The notes beneath the pieces are model-generated. The model was given only the letters and a program-made list of their open reading frames with translations. It ran no database searches and was not told the DNA's origin. From NCBI GenBank assembly GCA_024640785.1, contig JAHEEI010000008.1, positions 1 to 34,452 on the forward strand: a stretch of 34,452 nt of DNA, given 5' to 3'. Source of the DNA: Pseudomonadota bacterium (GTDB lineage: Bacteria > Desulfobacterota > WTBG01 > CAIYCZ01 > CAIRTM01). The translations under genes were made by a program, and so were the position numbers. The first letter of the stretch is position 1. Every line of letters begins with the position of its first letter. Shown one piece after another: positions 6,033 through 33,725 of this stretch.

Positions 6033-6449
6033 GTGAAAAAGTACGAGCAAACAGATCACACTGCAGACATCGGGCTTAGGATTTTCGGAAACAGCCTGCC
6101 GGCTCTGTTTGCAAATGCAGGTTATGCCTTATTTGACACTTTGACAGATATATTAAAGGTCAGCCCTGCCACAAAACAGGTTTTCCGTTTTCAGCGAGAT
6201 TCAGCAGAAGAACTGCTGGTTGAATGGATGGGAGCCCTGCTCTACACCTTTGAAACAGAAGACCTGCTTTTTAACAGATTTAACATTATATCCATTAATA
6301 AAAACTCTCTTTCTGCGGAAGCAGAAGGAGAGTTTTTTAATTCAGCTGTCCATACCATTAAAAACAGCGTTAAGGCCGTCACCTATCACAAGCTTAAAAT
6401 AGAAGAAAAAAACGGACGATGGCAGGCGGAGGTTGTGCTTGACATATAA
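6033..6449 (+). CDS. Archease family protein (RtcB ligase cofactor)
   Basis: 138 aa; YEQTDHTADIGLRIFGNSLPALFANAGYALFDTLTD and EELLVEWMGALLYTFETEDLLF are archease-like; GTG start; directly upstream of rtcB. Confidence 0.92.
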   Translation: MKKYEQTDHTADIGLRIFGNSLPALFANAGYALFDTLTDILKVSPATKQVFRFQRDSAEELLVEWMGALLYTFETEDLLFNRFNIISINKNSLSAEAEGEFFNSAVHTIKNSVKAVTYHKLKIEEKNGRWQAEVVLDI

Positions 6450-6480
6450 TGCTTTAACCACCCAAAACAATGGGTAAAAA

Positions 6481-7932
6481 ATGTCTGACAAACCAATTTC
6501 TCTTGAAAAAATAGACGACACAAAATGGCGCATTGAAAAGTGCCGCGATATGAAAACCCACGGTATAATCTATGCCGATGAAAAAATGATTCCCTCGATA
6601 AAACAGGACGATAGTCTTTCACAGGTAACAAATGTTGCCTGTCTGCCGGGTATTGTGGGCCCGTCAATGGCCATGCCGGACATCCACTGCGGATATGGGT
6701 TCCCCATCGGCGGGGTGGCAGCTTTTGACCTGGATGAAGGCATCGTCTCTCCCGGCGGGGTTGGATACGATATCAACTGCGGGGTCAGGCTCTTTAAAAC
6801 AGCTCTTCAAAAAGAAGATATCTCGGAACACTTAAAAACCCTTGTTGACGGACTCTTCCTTAATATCCCTTCCGGTATCGGCTCAAAAAGAAAGGACCTA
6901 AAGCTCAGCAGCAAAGAGCTTGAAGAGGTCCTTGAAAACGGCGCTGCCTGGGCTGTAAAAAACGGGTTTGGCTCATACAACGATATCCTTCATATAGAGG
7001 ACCATGGAAAAATTGAAAAAGCAGACCCCTCTCTGGTTTCTGAAAAAGCCTATAAAAGAGGGCAGCCGCAGCTCGGCACCCTGGGTTCAGGTAACCATTT
7101 TGTTGAAATCGCTTTTATCGATGAAATATATGACGAAGAGACAGCTACTCAGCTGGGACTGAAGCAGGGACAGATCACCGTATCCGTCCATACCGGCTCA
7201 AGGGGACTCGGCTATCAGGTCTGTGACGACTCCATCAAAAAAATGCTGAAGGCCGCCCAAAAATATAATATCAACCTTCCGGACAGACAGCTGTGCTGCG
7301 CACCAGTCAATTCAAAAGAAGGGCAAAACTATCTTGCCGCAATGGCTTGCGCTGCAAATTATGCCTTTGCCAACCGGCAGATTATTGGACACTGGATAAG
7401 AGAAACCTTTGAGCAGGTCCTTGCAACAAATCCCCGCGACCTGAAAATGGAACTGATCTATGACGTCTGCCACAACATCGCAAAGATAGAAGAGCACCGG
7501 GTTGAAGGTAAAAAGAAAAAGGTCTGTGTCCACAGAAAAGGCGCTACCCGGGCCTTCCCCCCTGACCACTCCCAGATTCCGGATGACTACAAAAAAATCG
7601 GCCAGCCGATTTTGATCCCGGGAGACATGGGCAGATACTCACACTTGCTTATAGGCACTGAAAAAGCAATGGAAGAAACCTTCGGCAGCACCTGCCACGG
7701 GGCAGGAAGGTTAATGAGCAGAAATCAGGCCAAAAAAGCAGCCCGGGGAAGAGCCATATACCGGGAACTGGAAGACAGGGGCATTATTGTAAGTGCGGCC
7801 GGAAGATTCACCCTGGTTGAAGAAATGCCGGATGCCTACAAAGATGTGAACATGGTGGTTGATGTGGTTGCCAAAGCCGGTATCGCAAAAAAAGTCGCGC
7901 GCATGAAACCGCTGGGTGTGATTAAGGGATAA
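6481..7932 (+). CDS. rtcB: RNA-splicing ligase RtcB
   Basis: 483 aa; MPDIHCGYGFPIGGVAAFD, GGVGYDINCGVRL, LGSGNHFVEI, HTGSRGLGYQV, VHRKGATRAFPP, GDMGRYSHLLIGTEKAMEETFGSTCHGAGR. Confidence 0.98.
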   Translation: MSDKPISLEKIDDTKWRIEKCRDMKTHGIIYADEKMIPSIKQDDSLSQVTNVACLPGIVGPSMAMPDIHCGYGFPIGGVAAFDLDEGIVSPGGVGYDINCGVRLFKTALQKEDISEHLKTLVDGLFLNIPSGIGSKRKDLKLSSKELEEVLENGAAWAVKNGFGSYNDILHIEDHGKIEKADPSLVSEKAYKRGQPQLGTLGSGNHFVEIAFIDEIYDEETATQLGLKQGQITVSVHTGSRGLGYQVCDDSIKKMLKAAQKYNINLPDRQLCCAPVNSKEGQNYLAAMACAANYAFANRQIIGHWIRETFEQVLATNPRDLKMELIYDVCHNIAKIEEHRVEGKKKKVCVHRKGATRAFPPDHSQIPDDYKKIGQPILIPGDMGRYSHLLIGTEKAMEETFGSTCHGAGRLMSRNQAKKAARGRAIYRELEDRGIIVSAAGRFTLVEEMPDAYKDVNMVVDVVAKAGIAKKVARMKPLGVIKG

Positions 7933-8066
7933 ATCAGCAGCAAAAAACCCCAATTCCTTTCAAAATCCTCGTTTACCTCTCAAAAAAGAAAAGATGAGAA
8001 ACAAACAATAAATAAAATTAAACGCAGTTTTTGTTTTTAATAGTGATTTAATTATTGTTTGTTGTA

Positions 8067-8095
8067 TTGACACAGCTAATAATATAGGCTAATTT
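8067..8095 (+). promoter_or_regulatory. Possible sigma70-type promoter upstream of the SlyB-like lipoprotein gene
   Basis: TTGACA (8067-8072), 17-nt spacer, TAATTT (8090-8095). Confidence 0.4.
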
Positions 8096-8174
8096 TATAG
8101 TTCTTACAGGCCTTTAACCCTTTTTCAATCCATAACAAAACTGGAACACCCTTTTTATATTCAAAGGAGGCATT

Positions 8175-8648
8175 ATGAAAAAAAGAGGACTTGCTTTAAT
8201 GTGTATATTTATTCTGAGTATCATCACTGTTTTTACAGGCTGTACTTCAACCAGCCAGGGAAGCAAAACTTATACGAGAACTCAGGCACAGTCTGCGTTA
8301 TCTGTTTACTATGGAACCGTTCTCAACGTAGCGGATGTGAAGATTCAGACTGAAACCAAAGGTGTGGTGGGTGGAATTGCCGGGGCCGTATTGGGCGGTG
8401 TTGTCGGATCAACGATCGGTGGTGGAAGCGGCAGGACTGTTGCGACCACTGTTGGTGCCCTTGGGGGTGCTGCTGCAGGGTCTAAAATTGAAGAAAAAAC
8501 AAAGATAAAACCAGGTGTTGAGCTTGAGGTGGAACTTGACGACGGACGTATAAGAGTAATTGTTCAGGAAAAGGATGATGAGTATGCTGTTGGTGACCGC
8601 ATTCGCGTTGTTGAAGCACCAGATGGTACGCTAAGGGTTAGGCAGTAA
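8175..8648 (+). CDS. SlyB-like glycine-zipper outer-membrane lipoprotein
   Basis: 157 aa; signal with lipobox VFTGC; YYGTVLNVADVKIQ..., glycine zipper GGIAGAVLGGVVGSTIGGGSGRTVATTVGALGGAAAGSKIEE, C-terminal basic/acidic beta segment; AAAGGAGG RBS. Confidence 0.82.
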   Translation: MKKRGLALMCIFILSIITVFTGCTSTSQGSKTYTRTQAQSALSVYYGTVLNVADVKIQTETKGVVGGIAGAVLGGVVGSTIGGGSGRTVATTVGALGGAAAGSKIEEKTKIKPGVELEVELDDGRIRVIVQEKDDEYAVGDRIRVVEAPDGTLRVRQ

Positions 8649-8675
8649 ATAAAAAGGCTCAAGAAGAGAGAGGAA

Positions 8676-9434
8676 ATGAAGACAGGCGGACGGGCGCACA
8701 GTATAAAAGATGCGGAGCAGATAGCTAGGATGGGTTTTCCTTTTGCCGAAATAAGTGTCCTTGATTCTTTAAAGTTCTGTAAGGAAGAAATCGAGTCCCT
8801 CAAAAGAATAAAGGATGAGTACGGGATTTACTTTCTGGCTCATGGGCCTGAAGAGGGTAATGCCTTCGAACCGAAAGTATTAAAAAAGGAGTTCTTGCCG
8901 GAGTTAAAATCGATCATTGACTGTCTTCCCCGGCTTTCAATTAAGCTTTTTACCATTCATTTTTGGATGGACAACAGGTTTATTGATAAAGCTATTATCA
9001 AAGATAAGCTTTTGCTGATAGGAGAATTGAATTCTTATGCATTAGATAAAGGAGTGCTTCTTTGTATTGAAAACCTTAGTGAGTCCTGGTCTGACTTTTT
9101 CCCGATTTTTGAGGAAATAGACACTCTTGGAATGACGCTTGACGTTGGACATGGAGAGCTTCTTTCAAAGAAAAACAGGTCTTATGGTTTTATCGCCAAC
9201 TGTTTTGACAATATAAAACACTTACATATCCATGATAATTTAGGAGGGGACAGCCCGGAAGATGATCTGCATCTTCCTCTTGGGGAGGGGAAAATAGATT
9301 TTTCTTCAATTTTACTTGATTTGAAGGGGAAAGGGTACGATAATAATATAACCCTTGAAGTTAAGACGAATCATCTGGTGAACGGCAAAAAAATTATTGA
9401 GGAAACACTATTGAGGAAAAGTGCTGAAAAATGA
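8676..9434 (+). CDS. Sugar phosphate isomerase/epimerase-like TIM-barrel protein (xylose isomerase-like / AP endonuclease 2 fold)
   Basis: 252 aa; LLCIENLSESW, LGMTLDVGHGEL, IKHLHIHDNLGGDSPEDDLHLPLGEGKIDF, ITLEVK are typical metal-site strands of this fold. Confidence 0.8.
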   Translation: MKTGGRAHSIKDAEQIARMGFPFAEISVLDSLKFCKEEIESLKRIKDEYGIYFLAHGPEEGNAFEPKVLKKEFLPELKSIIDCLPRLSIKLFTIHFWMDNRFIDKAIIKDKLLLIGELNSYALDKGVLLCIENLSESWSDFFPIFEEIDTLGMTLDVGHGELLSKKNRSYGFIANCFDNIKHLHIHDNLGGDSPEDDLHLPLGEGKIDFSSILLDLKGKGYDNNITLEVKTNHLVNGKKIIEETLLRKSAEK

Positions 9435-9733
9435 AAGAATCCTTGGTTTTAGAACAGCTCGAAACTATCGCTGACAACCTTGCAATAAAAATATGCGGCG
9501 TAAGTATGAAAAAGGCAGCCTATAATGTTAAGGGCGGTTTGTGTAAGGTGCGGGGAGAATACAGGGTTATTTTTGATAAGAATCTTCACCTCTCCGAGAA
9601 AATCGATGTTTTTGTTGATGCTCTCCAGGAGTTTGATATAGAAAATCTTACTGTAGATCCTTATGTGAAAAAGATTATTGAAAGAGAAGGCTGGAAACAG
9701 AAAAATATGTTTTCAGAAGCTGAAAAAAATTAG
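9431..9733 (+). CDS. Conserved hypothetical protein, about 100 aa
   Basis: Overlaps the preceding stop codon by 4 nt (ATGA), consistent with translational coupling; compact charged sequence with GGLCKVRGEYRVIFDK core; no named family assigned. Confidence 0.7.
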   Translation: MKESLVLEQLETIADNLAIKICGVSMKKAAYNVKGGLCKVRGEYRVIFDKNLHLSEKIDVFVDALQEFDIENLTVDPYVKKIIEREGWKQKNMFSEAEKN

Positions 9734-9736
9734 CTA

Positions 9737-10066
9737 TCATTCTTCCCTTTTTTCTAAAAAAGCCCTTTTAATTGTTTCGTATTCAAACCTTAACCTGCTT
9801 AGTAACTCCTCAACATTGTCAAACTTTCCAGTACGCAATATATCGTCCATTGATTTAGCAATTTTATGAATTGGGTCAAGCATAAGGCTTCCAGAGGATC
9901 CCTTGATGGAGTGAGATGCTCGGTGCGCTTTTTCCGCGTCAGATTCTTTTATTGCTGTCTCAAGGTTTTTAAGGTCTTCTCCGCCAGATTCAAAAAAGAT
10001 TTCTAGCATTTCAAGGTATTCCTCTTTATTAAGGCCTATGCTTTCACCTATCTCTTTAAAATTCAT
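9737..10066 (-). CDS. Hpt (histidine phosphotransfer) domain protein
   Basis: 109 aa; HRASHSIKGSSGSLMLDPIHKIAKSMDDILRTG contains the Hpt H-x-x-K-G-S phosphoacceptor motif. Confidence 0.9.
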   Translation of the reverse strand: MNFKEIGESIGLNKEEYLEMLEIFFESGGEDLKNLETAIKESDAEKAHRASHSIKGSSGSLMLDPIHKIAKSMDDILRTGKFDNVEELLSRLRFEYETIKRAFLEKREE

Positions 10067-23712: not shown

Positions 23713-23777
23713 AATAAAGGGAACAAATTATACAGTTTCCACTTAGCAATTAAACAAGAATGAAAGGAGAATGTATT

Positions 23778-24239
23778 ATGAAAAAAATTTTACTGATTAA
23801 CGTGGTGCTTTTGTTTACGGTTTCAGGAGTGGCTTTTGCCGCTGGTGCGCCGAGGGACAATTGCGGCTGTGGACTGGGAACCCTTCTTTTTGAAGGAAAA
23901 GGCGGATTGGTGCAGCAAATTTTAGCCGCAACTACAAACGGCAGTTTTGGTACACAGACCTTTGGCATCAGCTCAGGAACCCTGGAATGTAATCAGCCCT
24001 CAAAGTTTGCTTCAAACGAACAGCTGAACAATTTTGTTGCTGAAAACATGGATAACCTGGCCAAAGATGCGGCTATGGGCCAGGGTGAATATGTGGATAC
24101 CCTGGCAGTGCTGATGGGGGTTTCCAGTTCAAGTCGGGCTGAGTTTTCACAGATGCTTCAGGATAATTTTTCAAATATTTTTACGGAAGCATCTGTCAGT
24201 CATGTGGATGTTATTGAAAACATAGCAAACCTTATGTAG
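23778..24239 (+). CDS. DUF3015-like secreted protein, paralog 1
   Basis: Signal peptide MKKILLINVVLLFTVSGVAFA; NCGCGLGTLLFEG, QQILAATTNGSFGTQTFGISSGTLEC, DNLAKDAAMGQGEYVDTLAVLMG. AAAGGAG RBS overlaps the listed 23760 start, so ATG 23778 is preferred. Confidence 0.85.
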   Translation: MKKILLINVVLLFTVSGVAFAAGAPRDNCGCGLGTLLFEGKGGLVQQILAATTNGSFGTQTFGISSGTLECNQPSKFASNEQLNNFVAENMDNLAKDAAMGQGEYVDTLAVLMGVSSSSRAEFSQMLQDNFSNIFTEASVSHVDVIENIANLM

Positions 24240-25276: not shown

Positions 25277-25735
25277 ATGAAAAAAGTTTTACAGATAAGC
25301 ACAGTACTTTTTTTTATGGCCTCAGGAATTGCCTTTGCCGGTGGGACGAGGGAAAACTGCGGCTGCGGATTGGGGACAATGCTTTTTGACGGAGCAGATG
25401 GGCTGGCACAGCAGGTTCTAGCAGCAACCACAAACGGTACCTCTGGTACACAGACCTTTGGAATCAGTTCAGGCACCTTGGATTGTAACCTGCCATCAAA
25501 ATATGTGTCAAATGAAAAGCTTAACAGGTTTGTTGCTGATAATATGGATAATCTGGCAAAGGATGTCGCAATGGGTCAGGGTGAATATGTGGATACTTTG
25601 GCAGAAATTATGGATGTTCCGGGCTCAGAGAGAATTGAATTTTCACAGATGCTTCAGGAGAATTTCTCAAACATTTTTACTGATGGGTCAGTCAGCCATG
25701 TGGAGGTCATTGAAAATATAGCACATCTCATGTAA
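25277..25735 (+). CDS. DUF3015-like secreted protein, paralog 2
   Basis: 152 aa; nearly colinear with paralog 1 (ENCGCGLGTMLFDG, QQVLAATTNGTSGTQTFGISSGTLDC, NMDNLAKDVAMGQGEYVDTLAEIM, ENIAHLM); AAAGGAG RBS. Confidence 0.85.
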   Translation: MKKVLQISTVLFFMASGIAFAGGTRENCGCGLGTMLFDGADGLAQQVLAATTNGTSGTQTFGISSGTLDCNLPSKYVSNEKLNRFVADNMDNLAKDVAMGQGEYVDTLAEIMDVPGSERIEFSQMLQENFSNIFTDGSVSHVEVIENIAHLM

Positions 25736-27900: not shown

Positions 27901-30006
27901 ATGAGTAAAAGATTCTGCTTAGGCAAGGTTTTCTTTTTATTTATGGTTTCGTTTCTTCTGCCGGCGTCTGTTTTCGCATATGTGGGCCCTGGAGCCGGCT
28001 TTGCGGTGGCAGGCTCTTTTTTTGTGATGTTTATTGCGATCATATCGGCTTTTTTTGTCCTTCTGACCTGGCCTGCCCGTTACCTTATAAGAACAATTCG
28101 CTACCGAAAAGTAGCTGCCCGCAGCAGAATCAAAAAAACGGTCGTGCTTGGACTTGACGGACTTGACTATTCCTTAATTAATAAGTTTATGGATGAGGGA
28201 AAGCTTCCTAACTTTACCAAGCTTAAAGACTCCGGCAGTTTTAAACCTCTTGCATCGACCGTGCCCCCCATATCTCCTGTGGCCTGGTCAACTTTTCAAA
28301 CCGGCTCAAATCCGGGAAAACACAATATCTTCGATTTTTTAACCCGGGACAAAAAAACATACGCTGCCATTTTAAGCTCTACCTCAATAAAAGGTCCTTC
28401 ACGATATTTTTCTCTGGGCAAATATAGAATACCCTTGGGGACGTCTGACATCCGCCTGCTAAGAAAAAGCATCCCGTTTTGGAAGATTCTTGGTGATAAC
28501 GGTGTTTTTAGCAGTATTATTCGGGTGCCCATAACTTTTCCTCCTGAAAAATTTTATGGGATACAGCTTTCCGCCATGTGCGCTCCTGATCTGCGCGGAA
28601 CACAGGGAATGTTCTCCTTCTATAGTACCGGACAAAAAGACGGGGAAGAACCTACTGGCGGAGAATACTTTAAGGTTGAAAACAGGAACGGTTTTATAAG
28701 CTCCGTTCTTGTTGGGCCGGAAGATCCAATGCTTGAAAAAGGCGGAACGCTTAAATGTCCGTTTAAAGTTAAAACGGTTTCAGATGAAAGTGTTGATTTA
28801 ACGGTTTCTGGTGAAAAGTATGTCCTGAAAAAAGGCGAGTATAGCGACTGGATAAAAGTTGAATTTAAGGCTTCTCTTGGAGTAAGGATTTCAGGGGTGT
28901 GTATGTTTTTAGTGAAAGACATTTCACCGGAGTTTAAACTTTATGTTTCGCCCATTAATCTTGATCCTGCAAAGCCGGCCATGCCCATAAGTCATCCGAA
29001 AGTTTATTCAGCCTATCTTTCAAAAAGGCAGGGTTCTTATGCTACGCTAGGTCTTGCAGAAGACAGCTGGGCATTAAATGAAAAGATACTCAGTGACGAA
29101 GATTTTTTTAAGCAGTGTACTCAGATGGATAGTGAAAGAGAAAAAATGTTTTTTGATTCCCTTGAAAACATAAAACAGGGGCTCTGTGTTTGTGTGTTTG
29201 ACGGGACAGACCGGGTTCAGCATTCATTCTGGCGTGAGATTGACAAAGAGCACCCTTCACACGATGGTGCTTTTAAACAAAAGGAAAGTCCTGCCATTGA
29301 ACAGATCTATAAACGCGCAGACACTCTTCTTGGAAAAACGGTTGAAAAATGTTTGGATAAGGATACCCTGCTGATGGTTATTTCTGATCACGGGTTTAAT
29401 ACTTTCAGGCGCGGTGTTGACCTTAACCGGTGGCTGAAGGAAAATGGCTACCTGAAGCTAAAAGACAGCAAGCGGTATGTAAGTAACCTTGCAAATGTGG
29501 ACTGGTCCTGTACTAAGGCCTTTGCCATAGGTTTAACAGGGATATACTTAAACCTTAAGGGACGCGAAGCCGAAGGAATCGTCGATAAAGGTGAAGAAGC
29601 TGCAAACTTAAGGCAGGAGATTGCTGAAAAGCTGTGTAAGCTTAATGACCCTCAGCATCAGGCTTCCGCTGTAAAACATGTTTACGATGCAACAAAAATT
29701 TATATGGGCCCCTATAAGAATGAGGCGCCGGACCTTATTGTGGGATACCACAAGGGTTATCGGGCCTCCTGGGACACTGCTGTGGGAAAGGTAACGGACA
29801 ATGTGTTTCATGATAATTGTAAAGCCTGGAGTGGGGATCACTGTATTGACCGGTCCCTTGTTCCGGGAGTGCTGTTCTGTAACAGAAAAATAGAGGACGA
29901 ACAACCCAGGCTTATGGATATAGGCCCGACAGTTCTTGATATGTTCGGTGTTTCAATGCCTTCCCATATGGATGGTAAGCCGCTTAAGGTAGCAGACAGG
30001 AGATAA
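27901..30006 (+). CDS. AlkP-superfamily phosphohydrolase/phosphomutase-like protein, membrane-anchored (paralog 1)
   Basis: 701 aa; VVLGLDGLDYSLINKFMDEGKLPNFTKLK, PPISPVAWSTFQTGSNPGKHNIFDF, VFDGTDRVQHSFW, MVISDHGFNTFRRGVDLNRWLKENGYL, WSGDHCIDRSLVPGVLF. Confidence 0.9.
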   Translation: MSKRFCLGKVFFLFMVSFLLPASVFAYVGPGAGFAVAGSFFVMFIAIISAFFVLLTWPARYLIRTIRYRKVAARSRIKKTVVLGLDGLDYSLINKFMDEGKLPNFTKLKDSGSFKPLASTVPPISPVAWSTFQTGSNPGKHNIFDFLTRDKKTYAAILSSTSIKGPSRYFSLGKYRIPLGTSDIRLLRKSIPFWKILGDNGVFSSIIRVPITFPPEKFYGIQLSAMCAPDLRGTQGMFSFYSTGQKDGEEPTGGEYFKVENRNGFISSVLVGPEDPMLEKGGTLKCPFKVKTVSDESVDLTVSGEKYVLKKGEYSDWIKVEFKASLGVRISGVCMFLVKDISPEFKLYVSPINLDPAKPAMPISHPKVYSAYLSKRQGSYATLGLAEDSWALNEKILSDEDFFKQCTQMDSEREKMFFDSLENIKQGLCVCVFDGTDRVQHSFWREIDKEHPSHDGAFKQKESPAIEQIYKRADTLLGKTVEKCLDKDTLLMVISDHGFNTFRRGVDLNRWLKENGYLKLKDSKRYVSNLANVDWSCTKAFAIGLTGIYLNLKGREAEGIVDKGEEAANLRQEIAEKLCKLNDPQHQASAVKHVYDATKIYMGPYKNEAPDLIVGYHKGYRASWDTAVGKVTDNVFHDNCKAWSGDHCIDRSLVPGVLFCNRKIEDEQPRLMDIGPTVLDMFGVSMPSHMDGKPLKVADRR

Positions 30007-30008
30007 TT

Positions 30009-32021
30009 ATGAAAAAAATTACAAGGCGAGATTTTATTAAACAGTCATCTGTTGCAGCGGCGTCTTTAACCGCAGGGGTTAATGCGAAAAAGGTTTTTGC
30101 TGCGAACAGGGGGCAAGGGAAGAAAGTCATAGTGATAGGTTTTGATGGTATGGATCCGCGTCTTTGTCAGAAAATGATGGATCAGGGAAGACTTCCAAAT
30201 CTTGACGGGCTTAGAAAACAGAATGGATACCGGGTGCTGGGTACGAGCAACCCGCCTCAAAGCCCGGTTGCCTGGGCCAATTTCATTAATGGCGCGGGTC
30301 CGGGTTCACACGGGATTTTTGACTTTATTCATCGGGACCCCGAAAGACAGGCCTACCCGTTTTTTGCTGCGGCAGAAACAATTCCGGGAGAGGGCTATGT
30401 GGAATTTGGGGACCACAAGCTTCAGTTTGATTTCTGGCCGTTTAATCATAAGCCTTCAAAAACAATTCTAAAAAGGGCGGGCACCCCTTTCTGGGACTAC
30501 CTGGATAAGGCAGGAATAAAATCGACTTTTTATGACCTTCCTTCAAACTATCCGCCCAGTCCTTCAAAGAAGGGTAATCACAGGTGTCTGTCAGGCATGG
30601 GTACGCCTGACATGCTCGGGACCTATGGTACATATCAGCATTTTTCTGAAGAGGGGAAAGACATGTCTGAAGGCGGGGGGAAGCGTTCGAGGCTCACCTT
30701 TAACAATGATGTCTCAGCGCCAATTAAACTGATCGGGCCTAAAAATACCCTGCTTAAAGAGCCCAAGGACTGCTCAGTTGAGTTTGTTGTTCAGCGTGAC
30801 CCAAAGGCAAAGTCTGCTGTTATTGAAATACAGGGACACACCATTATTCTGAAGGAAAAAGAATGGAGCAAGTGGATACCGGTAAGTTTTGAGCTGTCAA
30901 CACCGGCTATCATGCCGGACAAGGAAGTGAAAGGTATCTGCAGGTTTTATGTTCAGGAAATATCTCCCAATTTCAGGCTTTATGCAACTCCGATTAATGC
31001 AGATCCGGCAAACCCTGACATTCAGATAACAGAACCTCCTGAGTTCAGCGAGATGATTTCTCAGAAACTGGACCGGTTTTACACCACCGGTTTTCAGGAG
31101 GATCATAAGGCGCTTTCAAACGGAATTTTTACAGATGATGAATTTGTGAAACAGGCGGAATATGTATTATGGGAGCGGATCAACTTGCTAAACTATGCGC
31201 TCGAGCAGTATGATGACGGCCTTTTGTTCTTCTATTTCTCAAGTACTGATATGCAGGCACATATGCTCTGGTGGGACTCCGATGCCAAGCACCCCCTGCG
31301 GTCTGATACTGAGGCAAAAAAATACTTTAACCATCTGCAGGACCTTTATGTCAGGATGGACAAGCTGGTCGGCAAACTTTTGAAGCAGTATGGTGACAAG
31401 GCTCACCTCATGATAATGAGTGACCACGGGTTCGCCAACTTTAAACGCCAGTTTAATCTTAATACCTGGCTCCGTGAAAACGGTTACCTTGGACCGGATA
31501 ATGCAAAATCCGTTCTCAGTGATGTGGACTGGTCTCAAACAAGGGCTTTTGCCCTTGGCATAAACGGACTTTATCTGAATCTTAAGGGGAGAGAAAGATA
31601 TGGCATTGTCAATTCCGGTAAAGAGAGTCAAGACCTGCTTGAAGAGTTGGTAAAAAAACTGGAAGCGGTCCGGGACAAGGATGGTCGCCGGGTTATAAGC
31701 AGGGTGCGCAGAGCTGACAAGACTTACTCTGGTTCTGAACTGAAATATGCGCCTGATTTAATTGTCGGGTACGCGCGCGATTTCAGGTCCTCCTGGAAGA
31801 ACTGTCTTGGTGATATTGAGAAAGACATCATGAGTGATAATGGCTCGGCATGGGCAGCTGATCACTGTATGGATTCTTCAGAAGTGCCGGGTGTGCTTTT
31901 CAGTAACAGGCCGGTTCTGGTTCCTGACCCGAGGCTTGTTGATCTTGGCCCGTCGATTTTAACTGAATTCGGGCTGAAAATCCCATCCACGATGACGGGG
32001 AAGAATATTTTTAAGGTTTAA
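30009..32021 (+). CDS. AlkP-superfamily phosphohydrolase/phosphomutase-like protein with Tat signal (paralog 2)
   Basis: 670 aa; N-terminal TRRDFIKQSSVAAASLTAG twin-arginine motif; VIVIGFDGMDPRLCQKMMDQGRLPNLDGL, PQSPVAWANFINGAGPGSHGIFDFIHRD, STDMQAHMLWW, MIMSDHGFANFKRQFNLNTWLRENGYL, ADHCMDSSEVPGVLFSN. Confidence 0.92.
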   Translation: MKKITRRDFIKQSSVAAASLTAGVNAKKVFAANRGQGKKVIVIGFDGMDPRLCQKMMDQGRLPNLDGLRKQNGYRVLGTSNPPQSPVAWANFINGAGPGSHGIFDFIHRDPERQAYPFFAAAETIPGEGYVEFGDHKLQFDFWPFNHKPSKTILKRAGTPFWDYLDKAGIKSTFYDLPSNYPPSPSKKGNHRCLSGMGTPDMLGTYGTYQHFSEEGKDMSEGGGKRSRLTFNNDVSAPIKLIGPKNTLLKEPKDCSVEFVVQRDPKAKSAVIEIQGHTIILKEKEWSKWIPVSFELSTPAIMPDKEVKGICRFYVQEISPNFRLYATPINADPANPDIQITEPPEFSEMISQKLDRFYTTGFQEDHKALSNGIFTDDEFVKQAEYVLWERINLLNYALEQYDDGLLFFYFSSTDMQAHMLWWDSDAKHPLRSDTEAKKYFNHLQDLYVRMDKLVGKLLKQYGDKAHLMIMSDHGFANFKRQFNLNTWLRENGYLGPDNAKSVLSDVDWSQTRAFALGINGLYLNLKGRERYGIVNSGKESQDLLEELVKKLEAVRDKDGRRVISRVRRADKTYSGSELKYAPDLIVGYARDFRSSWKNCLGDIEKDIMSDNGSAWAADHCMDSSEVPGVLFSNRPVLVPDPRLVDLGPSILTEFGLKIPSTMTGKNIFKV

Positions 32022-32304: not shown

Positions 32305-33147
32305 ATGGATCTTATTGTTTCACTTCTCACGGTTTTAAACAGATTAATGAATGCGGCTTCAGGTGCTCTTTTTGCATTTGTCGCTGTTTTGCCGGGCTGG
32401 CTTTCAATAACCATAATTTCCGCGGTTCTGGGTGTGCTTTTTCTGCTTATTTTCAAGTATACTTCTAACCAGAAAGCCATCGGCAGTGTCAGAGATGAGG
32501 TCAATGCCAACCTGATTGCCGCATGGCTTTTTAAAGACAGTATTTCTGTTACCATTAAATCTCAGGCTAGGGTTTTTATTGCTTCGTTTAAACTTCTTTA
32601 TTTTGCTGTAATTCCGCTGCTTGTGATGATTGTTCCGGTCAGTCTTATCCTTGCGCAGATGGGATTATGGTATCAGGCCAGGCCGCTAAGTGTTTCTGAT
32701 GAGCCGGTGGTTGTAAGGCTGAGCCTAAATGAAAGCCTTCAAAGTTTTCCATCTGTCAGGCTTGAACCCTCAGAGGTATTTCAGAAGACAACCGGCCCTG
32801 TCAAAATCGTGACCAAAGGAGAGGTCCTGTGGGAGTTGAAACCCCTGAAGAACGGTAGGCATGAACTAAACTTTGATGTTGACGGTAATAAAATTACCAA
32901 ACAGTTTGTTGTTGGTGAGGGTTTTATGAAGGTCAGTCTGATGCGGCCCGGAAGAAGTTTTGAAGATATTCTTCTTCATCCGCTTGAAAAGCCGTTTTCA
33001 AAGGACAGCCCTGTTTATTCAATAAATGTTGAATATCCTGAAAGAAACTCAAAAGTGTGTGGAACAGACTGGTGGATACTTTATTTCTTTATTTGTTCAA
33101 TGGTTTTTGCGTTTGCATTCAAACCTTTTCTTAATGTGAGGATATAA
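32305..33147 (+). CDS. Polytopic membrane protein of unknown function (possible Oxa1/EMC3-like core)
   Basis: 280 aa; hydrophobic segments near residues 15-50, 90-120 and 255-275; charged intervening SNQKAIGSVRDEVNANLIAAWLFKDSISVTIKSQAR; starts 2 nt after the preceding stop. Confidence 0.8.
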   Translation: MDLIVSLLTVLNRLMNAASGALFAFVAVLPGWLSITIISAVLGVLFLLIFKYTSNQKAIGSVRDEVNANLIAAWLFKDSISVTIKSQARVFIASFKLLYFAVIPLLVMIVPVSLILAQMGLWYQARPLSVSDEPVVVRLSLNESLQSFPSVRLEPSEVFQKTTGPVKIVTKGEVLWELKPLKNGRHELNFDVDGNKITKQFVVGEGFMKVSLMRPGRSFEDILLHPLEKPFSKDSPVYSINVEYPERNSKVCGTDWWILYFFICSMVFAFAFKPFLNVRI

Positions 33148-33152
33148 AAAAT

Positions 33153-33725
33153 ATGGAGAAATCCTTTATAACAATTGTGGCTGGACTTCCCCGTTCAGGA
33201 ACCTCAATGATGATGCAGGCGATAGAAGCAGGCGGTATCCCCGCCTTAACTGACGGGATCAGAGAAAAAGATGTGGACAATCCCAAAGGCTATTATGAGT
33301 TTGAAGCTGTGAAAAAAACCAAAGCAGATCCTTCCTGGGTAAAAGAGGCGGAAGGAAAAGTTGTCAAGATGGTCTATAGCCTTTTGTATGACTTGCCGGA
33401 TGATCATGAGTACAGAGTTGTTTTTTTGCAGAGAGAGATGAAAGAAGTTCTGGCTTCGCAAAGGAAGATGCTTGAAAGGACCGGGAAAAAGGGCGCAAGT
33501 GTTGGAGATGAAAAGCTTTCAGAACTTTTTAAGGCACAGCTTAAAAAATTTCATAAATGGATCTCGGACAAGGATAATTTTTCAATTGTTGTAATCGATT
33601 ACAAAAATATGATAAAATCCCCGGCTGATCAGGCAGAGAAAGTAGACAAACTGCTTGGAAATATTCTTGATAAAGATGGTTTTGTTTCAGCAGTCGATCC
33701 GTCGCTTTACCGTAACCGTTCTTAA
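33153..33725 (+). CDS. Small sulfotransferase-family-like P-loop protein
   Basis: 190 aa; ITIVAGLPRSGTSMMMQAIEAGG (PAPS 5'-phosphosulfate-type loop), YRVVFLQREMKEVLASQRKML (R...S-type 3'-phosphate region). Confidence 0.75.
   Translation: MEKSFITIVAGLPRSGTSMMMQAIEAGGIPALTDGIREKDVDNPKGYYEFEAVKKTKADPSWVKEAEGKVVKMVYSLLYDLPDDHEYRVVFLQREMKEVLASQRKMLERTGKKGASVGDEKLSELFKAQLKKFHKWISDKDNFSIVVIDYKNMIKSPADQAEKVDKLLGNILDKDGFVSAVDPSLYRNRS

Follow-up and report, generated by a model that had tools for sequence, protein, structure and literature searches.

Paired phosphohydrolases predicted on opposite faces of the bacterial inner membrane are encoded together with an Oxa1-superfamily protein

Two paralogous phosphohydrolases, P1 and P2, and a three-TM membrane protein of the Oxa1 superfamily, P3, are encoded by neighboring genes in the window (the whole stretch of 34,452 nucleotides analyzed here, contig C64 of a 2.84 Mb draft genome). 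The best explanation for this arrangement, to which we assign a probability of roughly 0.55, is that the opposite-facing P1 and P2 together with P3 constitute a membrane module that handles one substrate on both leaflets and has a link to sulfate. P1 and P2 would be ancient paralogs, each held permanently to its own side of the inner membrane. One firm TM helix, preceded by a signal-like one, would tether P1 in an N-out/C-in orientation, leaving its catalytic domain in the cytoplasm, and P2 would be exported to the periplasm. P3, with a helical hairpin directed toward the cytoplasm and an Ig-like domain directed toward the periplasm, would form a module with both enzymes, either as its membrane core or as a dedicated insertase or scramblase. 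A substrate associated with the membrane would then have its anionic head group processed by P1 on the inner leaflet and by P2 on the outer, in a pathway that would include sulfate activation or sulfotransfer via a fourth protein, P4. The reading builds on computed results for fold family, active-site conservation, topology and export signals, ancient pairing, gene linkage and the homology of P3, which are set out below together with the coordinates of the features (Table 1).

Table 1. Location of the module's features in the window, with strand and the basis of each assignment.
Feature	Position	Strand	Basis
P1, membrane-anchored phosphohydrolase of the alkaline-phosphatase superfamily (PF01663), 701 aa, with a predicted cytoplasmic catalytic domain	27901..30006	+	PF01663 E=2.1e-31; fold; conserved site
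P1 helix 1, signal-peptide-like, AxA-like site at its end before Tyr27	27925..27978	+	hydrophobic stretch in 75/79; small -3/-1 residues in 78/79
P1 loop YVGPGAG, predicted periplasmic	27979..27999	+	Y, G, P, G, A, G same in 79/79; uncharged in window
P1 transmembrane helix 2 (TM2), N-out/C-in (predicted)	28000..28071	+	insertion energy in all 79; AF2 helix 30-74
P1 basic stretch right behind TM2, 9 K/R, 0 D/E	28072..28137	+	K/R charge pattern in 79 orthologs
P2, P1 paralog, 670 aa, exported (predicted)	30009..32021	+	PF01663 E=9.3e-32; metal-site and nucleophile residues in 68/68
P2 twin-arginine signal TRRDFIK...	30018..30080	+	TIGR01409 21.4 bits, cut-off 16.7
P3, three-TM Oxa1-superfamily (archaeal DUF106/EMC3-type) membrane protein, inserted predicted periplasmic Ig-like domain	32305..33147	+	profile similarity; AF2 layout
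P4, sulfotransferase-like, 190 aa, no TM, PAPS-type P-loop GLPRSGTS, R-x7-S motif	33153..33725	+	borderline PF00685 match; motifs

P1 and P2 exceed the curated PF01663 cut-off of 23 bits with scores of 110 and 111 bits, respectively, and thereby share a Pfam family with NPP and phosphonoacetate hydrolase (PhnA). They also share the fold: in a Foldseek search with the AF2 model of P1 the best matches were XaNPP (7n1s) and phosphonoacetate hydrolase (1ei6), at E of about 1e-10. The two-metal ligands and the Ser nucleophile, which were assigned from alignment order, are like those of NPP and PhnA and stand in the expected order. Among the P1 orthologs (79 near-complete sequences, window included) the candidate ligands D86, D437, H441, D496, H497 and H647 are present without exception and the candidate nucleophile S125 is present in 75; in P2 the metal-site and nucleophile residues D46, S85, D414, H418, D472, H473 and H619 are invariant across 68 orthologs. 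Judged by this conservation, both proteins are likely to be active enzymes. They differ from solved PF01663 relatives in showing only about 10-12% identity to them and in carrying a beta-sandwich insert around residues 255-349. Because identity is so low, the fold does not reveal the substrate; a single-sequence PDB search with P1 gave chance-level matches to iPGM only. The Asn of NPP and PhnA at position +21 from the nucleophile is absent from P1 and P2, where the Phe of an invariant FDF motif is found instead.

In a tree of 151 catalytic domains P1 (83 tips) and P2 (68 tips) are completely separate, each clade being monophyletic with respect to the other, which indicates that the duplication and the division of labor had taken place before the operon spread to several phyla. 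Enzymes with the fold of the alkaline-phosphatase superfamily function on both sides of the membrane, iPGM and PhnA being cytoplasmic and PafA and XaNPP periplasmic. P1 and P2 share this fold; unlike those enzymes, they are sister paralogs encoded side by side and, by prediction, sent to opposite faces, in an arrangement that is conserved.

The sequence-only reading had described the N-terminus of P1 as a signal-like helix, a YVGPGAG loop, a second helix and a basic stretch. The order in the window is indeed MSKRFCLGKVFFLFMVSFLLPASVFA-YVGPGAG-FAVAGSFFVMFIAIISAFFVLLTW-PARYLIRTIRYRKVAARSRIKK-TVVLGLDG, and the pattern is kept in all 79 orthologs: the loop reads AY(V/I)GPGAG throughout, and residues Y27, G29, P30, G31, A32, G33, P58 and R60 are identical in every aligned sequence, that of the window included. 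This conservation is far beyond what chance would give. The loop has no K/R in 66 orthologs and a single one in 13; the 22 residues behind TM2 have a median of eight K/R (minimum five) and at most one D/E, so that the K/R count behind TM2 exceeds that of the loop in 79 of 79 cases. For the window the corresponding numbers are nine K/R and no D/E in residues 58-79, and no K/R in the loop. The best 19-residue summed insertion energy of TM2 is at most 1.1 in all orthologs, with a median of -1.3.

Helix 1 has a hydrophobic stretch in 75 of the 79 orthologs and may be cleaved by signal peptidase, since the residues at -3 and -1 of Tyr27 are small in 78. Whether it is cleaved or not, the catalytic domain is predicted to end up in the cytoplasm, and this domain together with its TM anchor distinguishes P1 from NPP and PhnA. 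Helix 1 is weak or missing in five orthologs (L061, L062, L065, L066 and L068; for example, MTIHTVDQLIDNMSLAYIGPGAG), which have a net charge of 0 to +1 before TM2 and 9-10 K/R behind it. For orthologs of this kind, without a convincing helix 1, the positive-inside rule predicts the same N-out/C-in orientation with a single TM. These data bear on the reading that helix 1 is cleaved off as a signal peptide, that helix 2 fails to stop transfer, and that both catalytic domains consequently lie in the periplasm. We regard this as very improbable: the AxA-like signal-peptidase site at the end of helix 1 (78 of 79 orthologs) and the low AF2 confidence over residues 1-30 of P1 (in a model with a pLDDT of 89.6) would be in keeping with it, whereas helix 2 is strongly hydrophobic in every ortholog and is followed by at least five K/R and no more than one acid, the charge pattern is retained where helix 1 is lacking, and at one locus (L147) P1 pairs alone with a cytosolic-looking sulfotransferase-like protein. 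In order to see if the anchor is a general module, YIGPGAG was sought elsewhere in the genome of the window; P1 was its only carrier.

A Tat signal had also been read in P2, and it is borne out by a TIGR01409 score above the cut-off and by a TatC encoded in the same genome. All 68 P2 orthologs possess an export signal, which is variously Tat, Tat-lipoprotein, Sec-lipoprotein or Sec: the twin-arginine motif is found in 50, ten of these with a lipobox, and the remainder are Sec-lipoprotein or plain Sec (lipoboxes were called by script, with four more assigned by eye). Because the route changes among orthologs while export stays, these signals provide good evidence that the outside location of P2 is what is selected. 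The cysteine content of the catalytic domains is as expected for a cytoplasmic and a periplasmic enzyme, being higher in P1 than in P2 in 61 of 66 pairs (P=4e-12, for a comparison of two clades whose pairs are not phylogenetically independent). Prediction, and conservation in 79 P1 and 68 P2 orthologs, give good support to the proposal that the two catalytic domains lie on opposite sides of the membrane, and on the basis of hydrophobicity, charge and conservation we hold with high confidence that the domain of P1 is cytoplasmic and that of P2 periplasmic.

A scan of GTDB species genomes uncovered 80 loci whose relatives reach 51-68% identity in their best segment; they come from Thermodesulfobacteriota, Planctomycetota, Calditrichota, KSB1, Omnitrophota, Eisenbacteria and other phyla. 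The P1-P2-P3 trio is present in 59 loci, and most loci, in several phyla, have P2 immediately between the other two genes. Within the phylum of the window, P3 occurs in 10 of 198 genomes. In nine of these its contig also carries a full P1-type gene (Fisher P=2e-12), and in the tenth there is a P2-type fragment truncated at a contig end. P3 is a frequent, non-obligate partner of P1: it is not strictly required, because P1-type genes also occur without it (G051, G047 and G083). In one such case (L149 in G047, 6437-8617) the loop of the P1 relative is YIDPGTTG in place of YIGPGAG, the membrane region differs and there is no P3 nearby. Literature searches for the operon, COG3379 and YIGPGAG found nothing relevant, and the main text of a planctomycete fractionation proteome makes no mention of P1/P2-type enzymes. 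P1-P2-P3 is a conserved membrane module that has apparently not been described.

Most surprising in this arrangement is that a bacterial operon should contain an EMC3-type protein. In the Oxa1 superfamily the bacterial form is YidC, with five conserved TMs and an H4-H5 membrane hairpin, and archaea and eukaryotes have the three-TM proteins DUF106, EMC3, GET1 and TMCO1 (PMC8675477, PMC8887752). P3 falls within the same superfamily as YidC and differs from it in having three TMs; canonical YidC matches are encoded elsewhere in the window's genome, separate from P3. A profile of 63 P3 orthologs compared to the whole PDB had a sole match, the archaeal Oxa1-superfamily member MJ0480 (5c8j, E=8e-7); at the last TM there was an additional colinear match, a weak one. 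Aligned to the MJ0480 fragment by hhalign, P3 scored 82.6%, with E about 1e-5 for a single sequence. Taken singly, P3 sequences rarely match PF01956 (EMC3_TMCO1): 3 of 63 members do so, the best at E 1.6e-4. The window's P3 has no PF01956 match, a single-sequence Pfam scan of it was empty, and a PF01956 search of its own genome did not find it.

The AF2 model of P3 (pLDDT 96) has helices at residues 2-22, 31-53, 56-75, 80-123 and 256-276, in the layout H1 - cytoplasmic hairpin - H4 - H5. As in MJ0480 and the EMC3, TMCO1 and GET1 proteins of PF01956, there are three TMs, a cytoplasmic hairpin between the first two and an extra N-terminal helix; the second TM contains P-x6-P, formed by the invariant P104 and P111, which are spaced as in MJ0480 (RPMIYTWVP). 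By profile and layout P3 belongs to the Oxa1 superfamily; the window's own P3 stays below the curated PF01956 cut-off. It is unlike the archaeal and eukaryotic members in its bacterial host and in the linkage of its gene to phosphohydrolases, and between its second and third TM an Ig-like domain is predicted where DUF106/EMC3 types have a short loop. Foldseek searches with the P3 model matched this Ig-like domain only and no insertase, with nothing below 0.001.

If P3 were an ordinary insertase, then the module could be explained more simply: the opposite faces would be real, the substrates of P1 and P2 unrelated, P3 devoted solely to inserting the unusual N-out anchor of P1, and the gene cluster no more than a case of co-transcription. 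This is a serious rival to the reading we favor, if an unlikely one. EMC/YidC-type insertases handle short N-out tails, such tails are found in four P1 orthologs (L061, L062, L065 and L068), and the P1-P3 linkage is kept where P2 is not between them, being on another contig or not adjacent (L084, G042 and G091). Against this must be set the usual position of P2 between P1 and P3, the ancient pairing of P1 and P2 as sisters, the canonical YidC already in the genome, and the conserved periplasmic domain of P3, which would be superfluous for inserting P1.

Under the favored reading, a two-leaflet module, P1, P2 and P3 may form a physical complex acting on a shared substrate, which we infer to be lipid-linked or sulfated. 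That the substrate is flipped across the membrane between P1 and P2, as was suggested from sequence at the outset, is plausible. The conserved neighbor P3 lends the idea some indirect support and makes it mechanistically reasonable, since lipid scrambling has been reported for insertases of the Oxa1 family both in vitro and in simulation (PMC10491306). A more elaborate version, which we consider quite improbable as a whole, is that P3 has left protein insertion for a new task, ferrying between leaflets the head group of an intermediate that is lipid-linked and probably sulfated. P1 and P2 would dock on its cytoplasmic hairpin and periplasmic Ig-like domain and trim the substrate on each side, with the membrane segment of P1 in the partner role of archaeal/eukaryotic EMC6 or GET2. 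If the two-leaflet reading is true, then a three-TM Oxa1 type in bacteria, tied genetically to two opposite-facing enzymes, extends the picture of the superfamily; the proposed lipid-scrambling role of insertases becomes testable by a dedicated enzymatic readout; and a widespread uncharacterized operon of Planctomycetota and Desulfobacterota-like bacteria gains a function.

The neighborhood of the module contains hints of sulfation chemistry and sulfate activation. P4 scores 23.3 bits against Sulfotransfer_1 (PF00685), which is borderline for a cut-off of 22; GLPR(S/A)GTS is present in 18 of 18 listed P4 sequences, and R-x7-S in those inspected. Of 79 loci, 21 have a P4 gene after P3, in every case on the same strand and 4.9-6.2 kb downstream of the P1 start, and at L147 (G051, 6482-9782) a P1-type gene is directly followed by P4, with neither P2 nor P3. 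Sulfate-activation genes lie near eight other loci, all without P4 (the ATP-sulfurylase genes CysN in six and CysD in five, and CysC, the APS kinase, in two); an arylsulfotransferase-like gene is directly upstream in nine; and the window's genome encodes APS kinase and CysD/CysN. These observations speak for a reading in which the module serves sulfation: cytoplasmic P1 would work with P4 as a PAPS-dependent sulfotransferase, for instance on nucleotide by-products or on a phosphorylated compound from which a sulfated lipid or glycan is made, while a related step outside would fall to P2. It overlaps the explanation we prefer, differing in that the core is sulfation instead of lipid head-group shuttling, and we view it as possible but doubtful; such neighbors are absent from most loci, those with CysD/CysN belong mainly to related planctomycete lineages, and the neighbor counts are raw numbers, to be read against the wide occurrence of sulfatases and ASST-like propellers in planctomycetes.

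Several neighboring genes were rejected as parts of the module. The position of the Lnb_N/DUF7840/DUF7843 gene directly upstream of P1 (25749-27695) is not conserved, nor are those of nearby sulfatases; a GT2 gene after P4 (33749-34444), similar to polyprenyl-phosphate hexose transferases, is rarely seen next to the module at other loci. At five loci (L012, L013, L015, L030 and L078) there is a smaller, soluble and signal-less gene of the alkaline-phosphatase superfamily, of about 420-460 aa, adjoined in several relatives by CysD/CysN or CysC; a relative of this gene is present in the window's genome (G000:C221:8451-9803). The window also contains two DUF3015 genes (23760-24239 and 25277-25735), close together and on the same strand.
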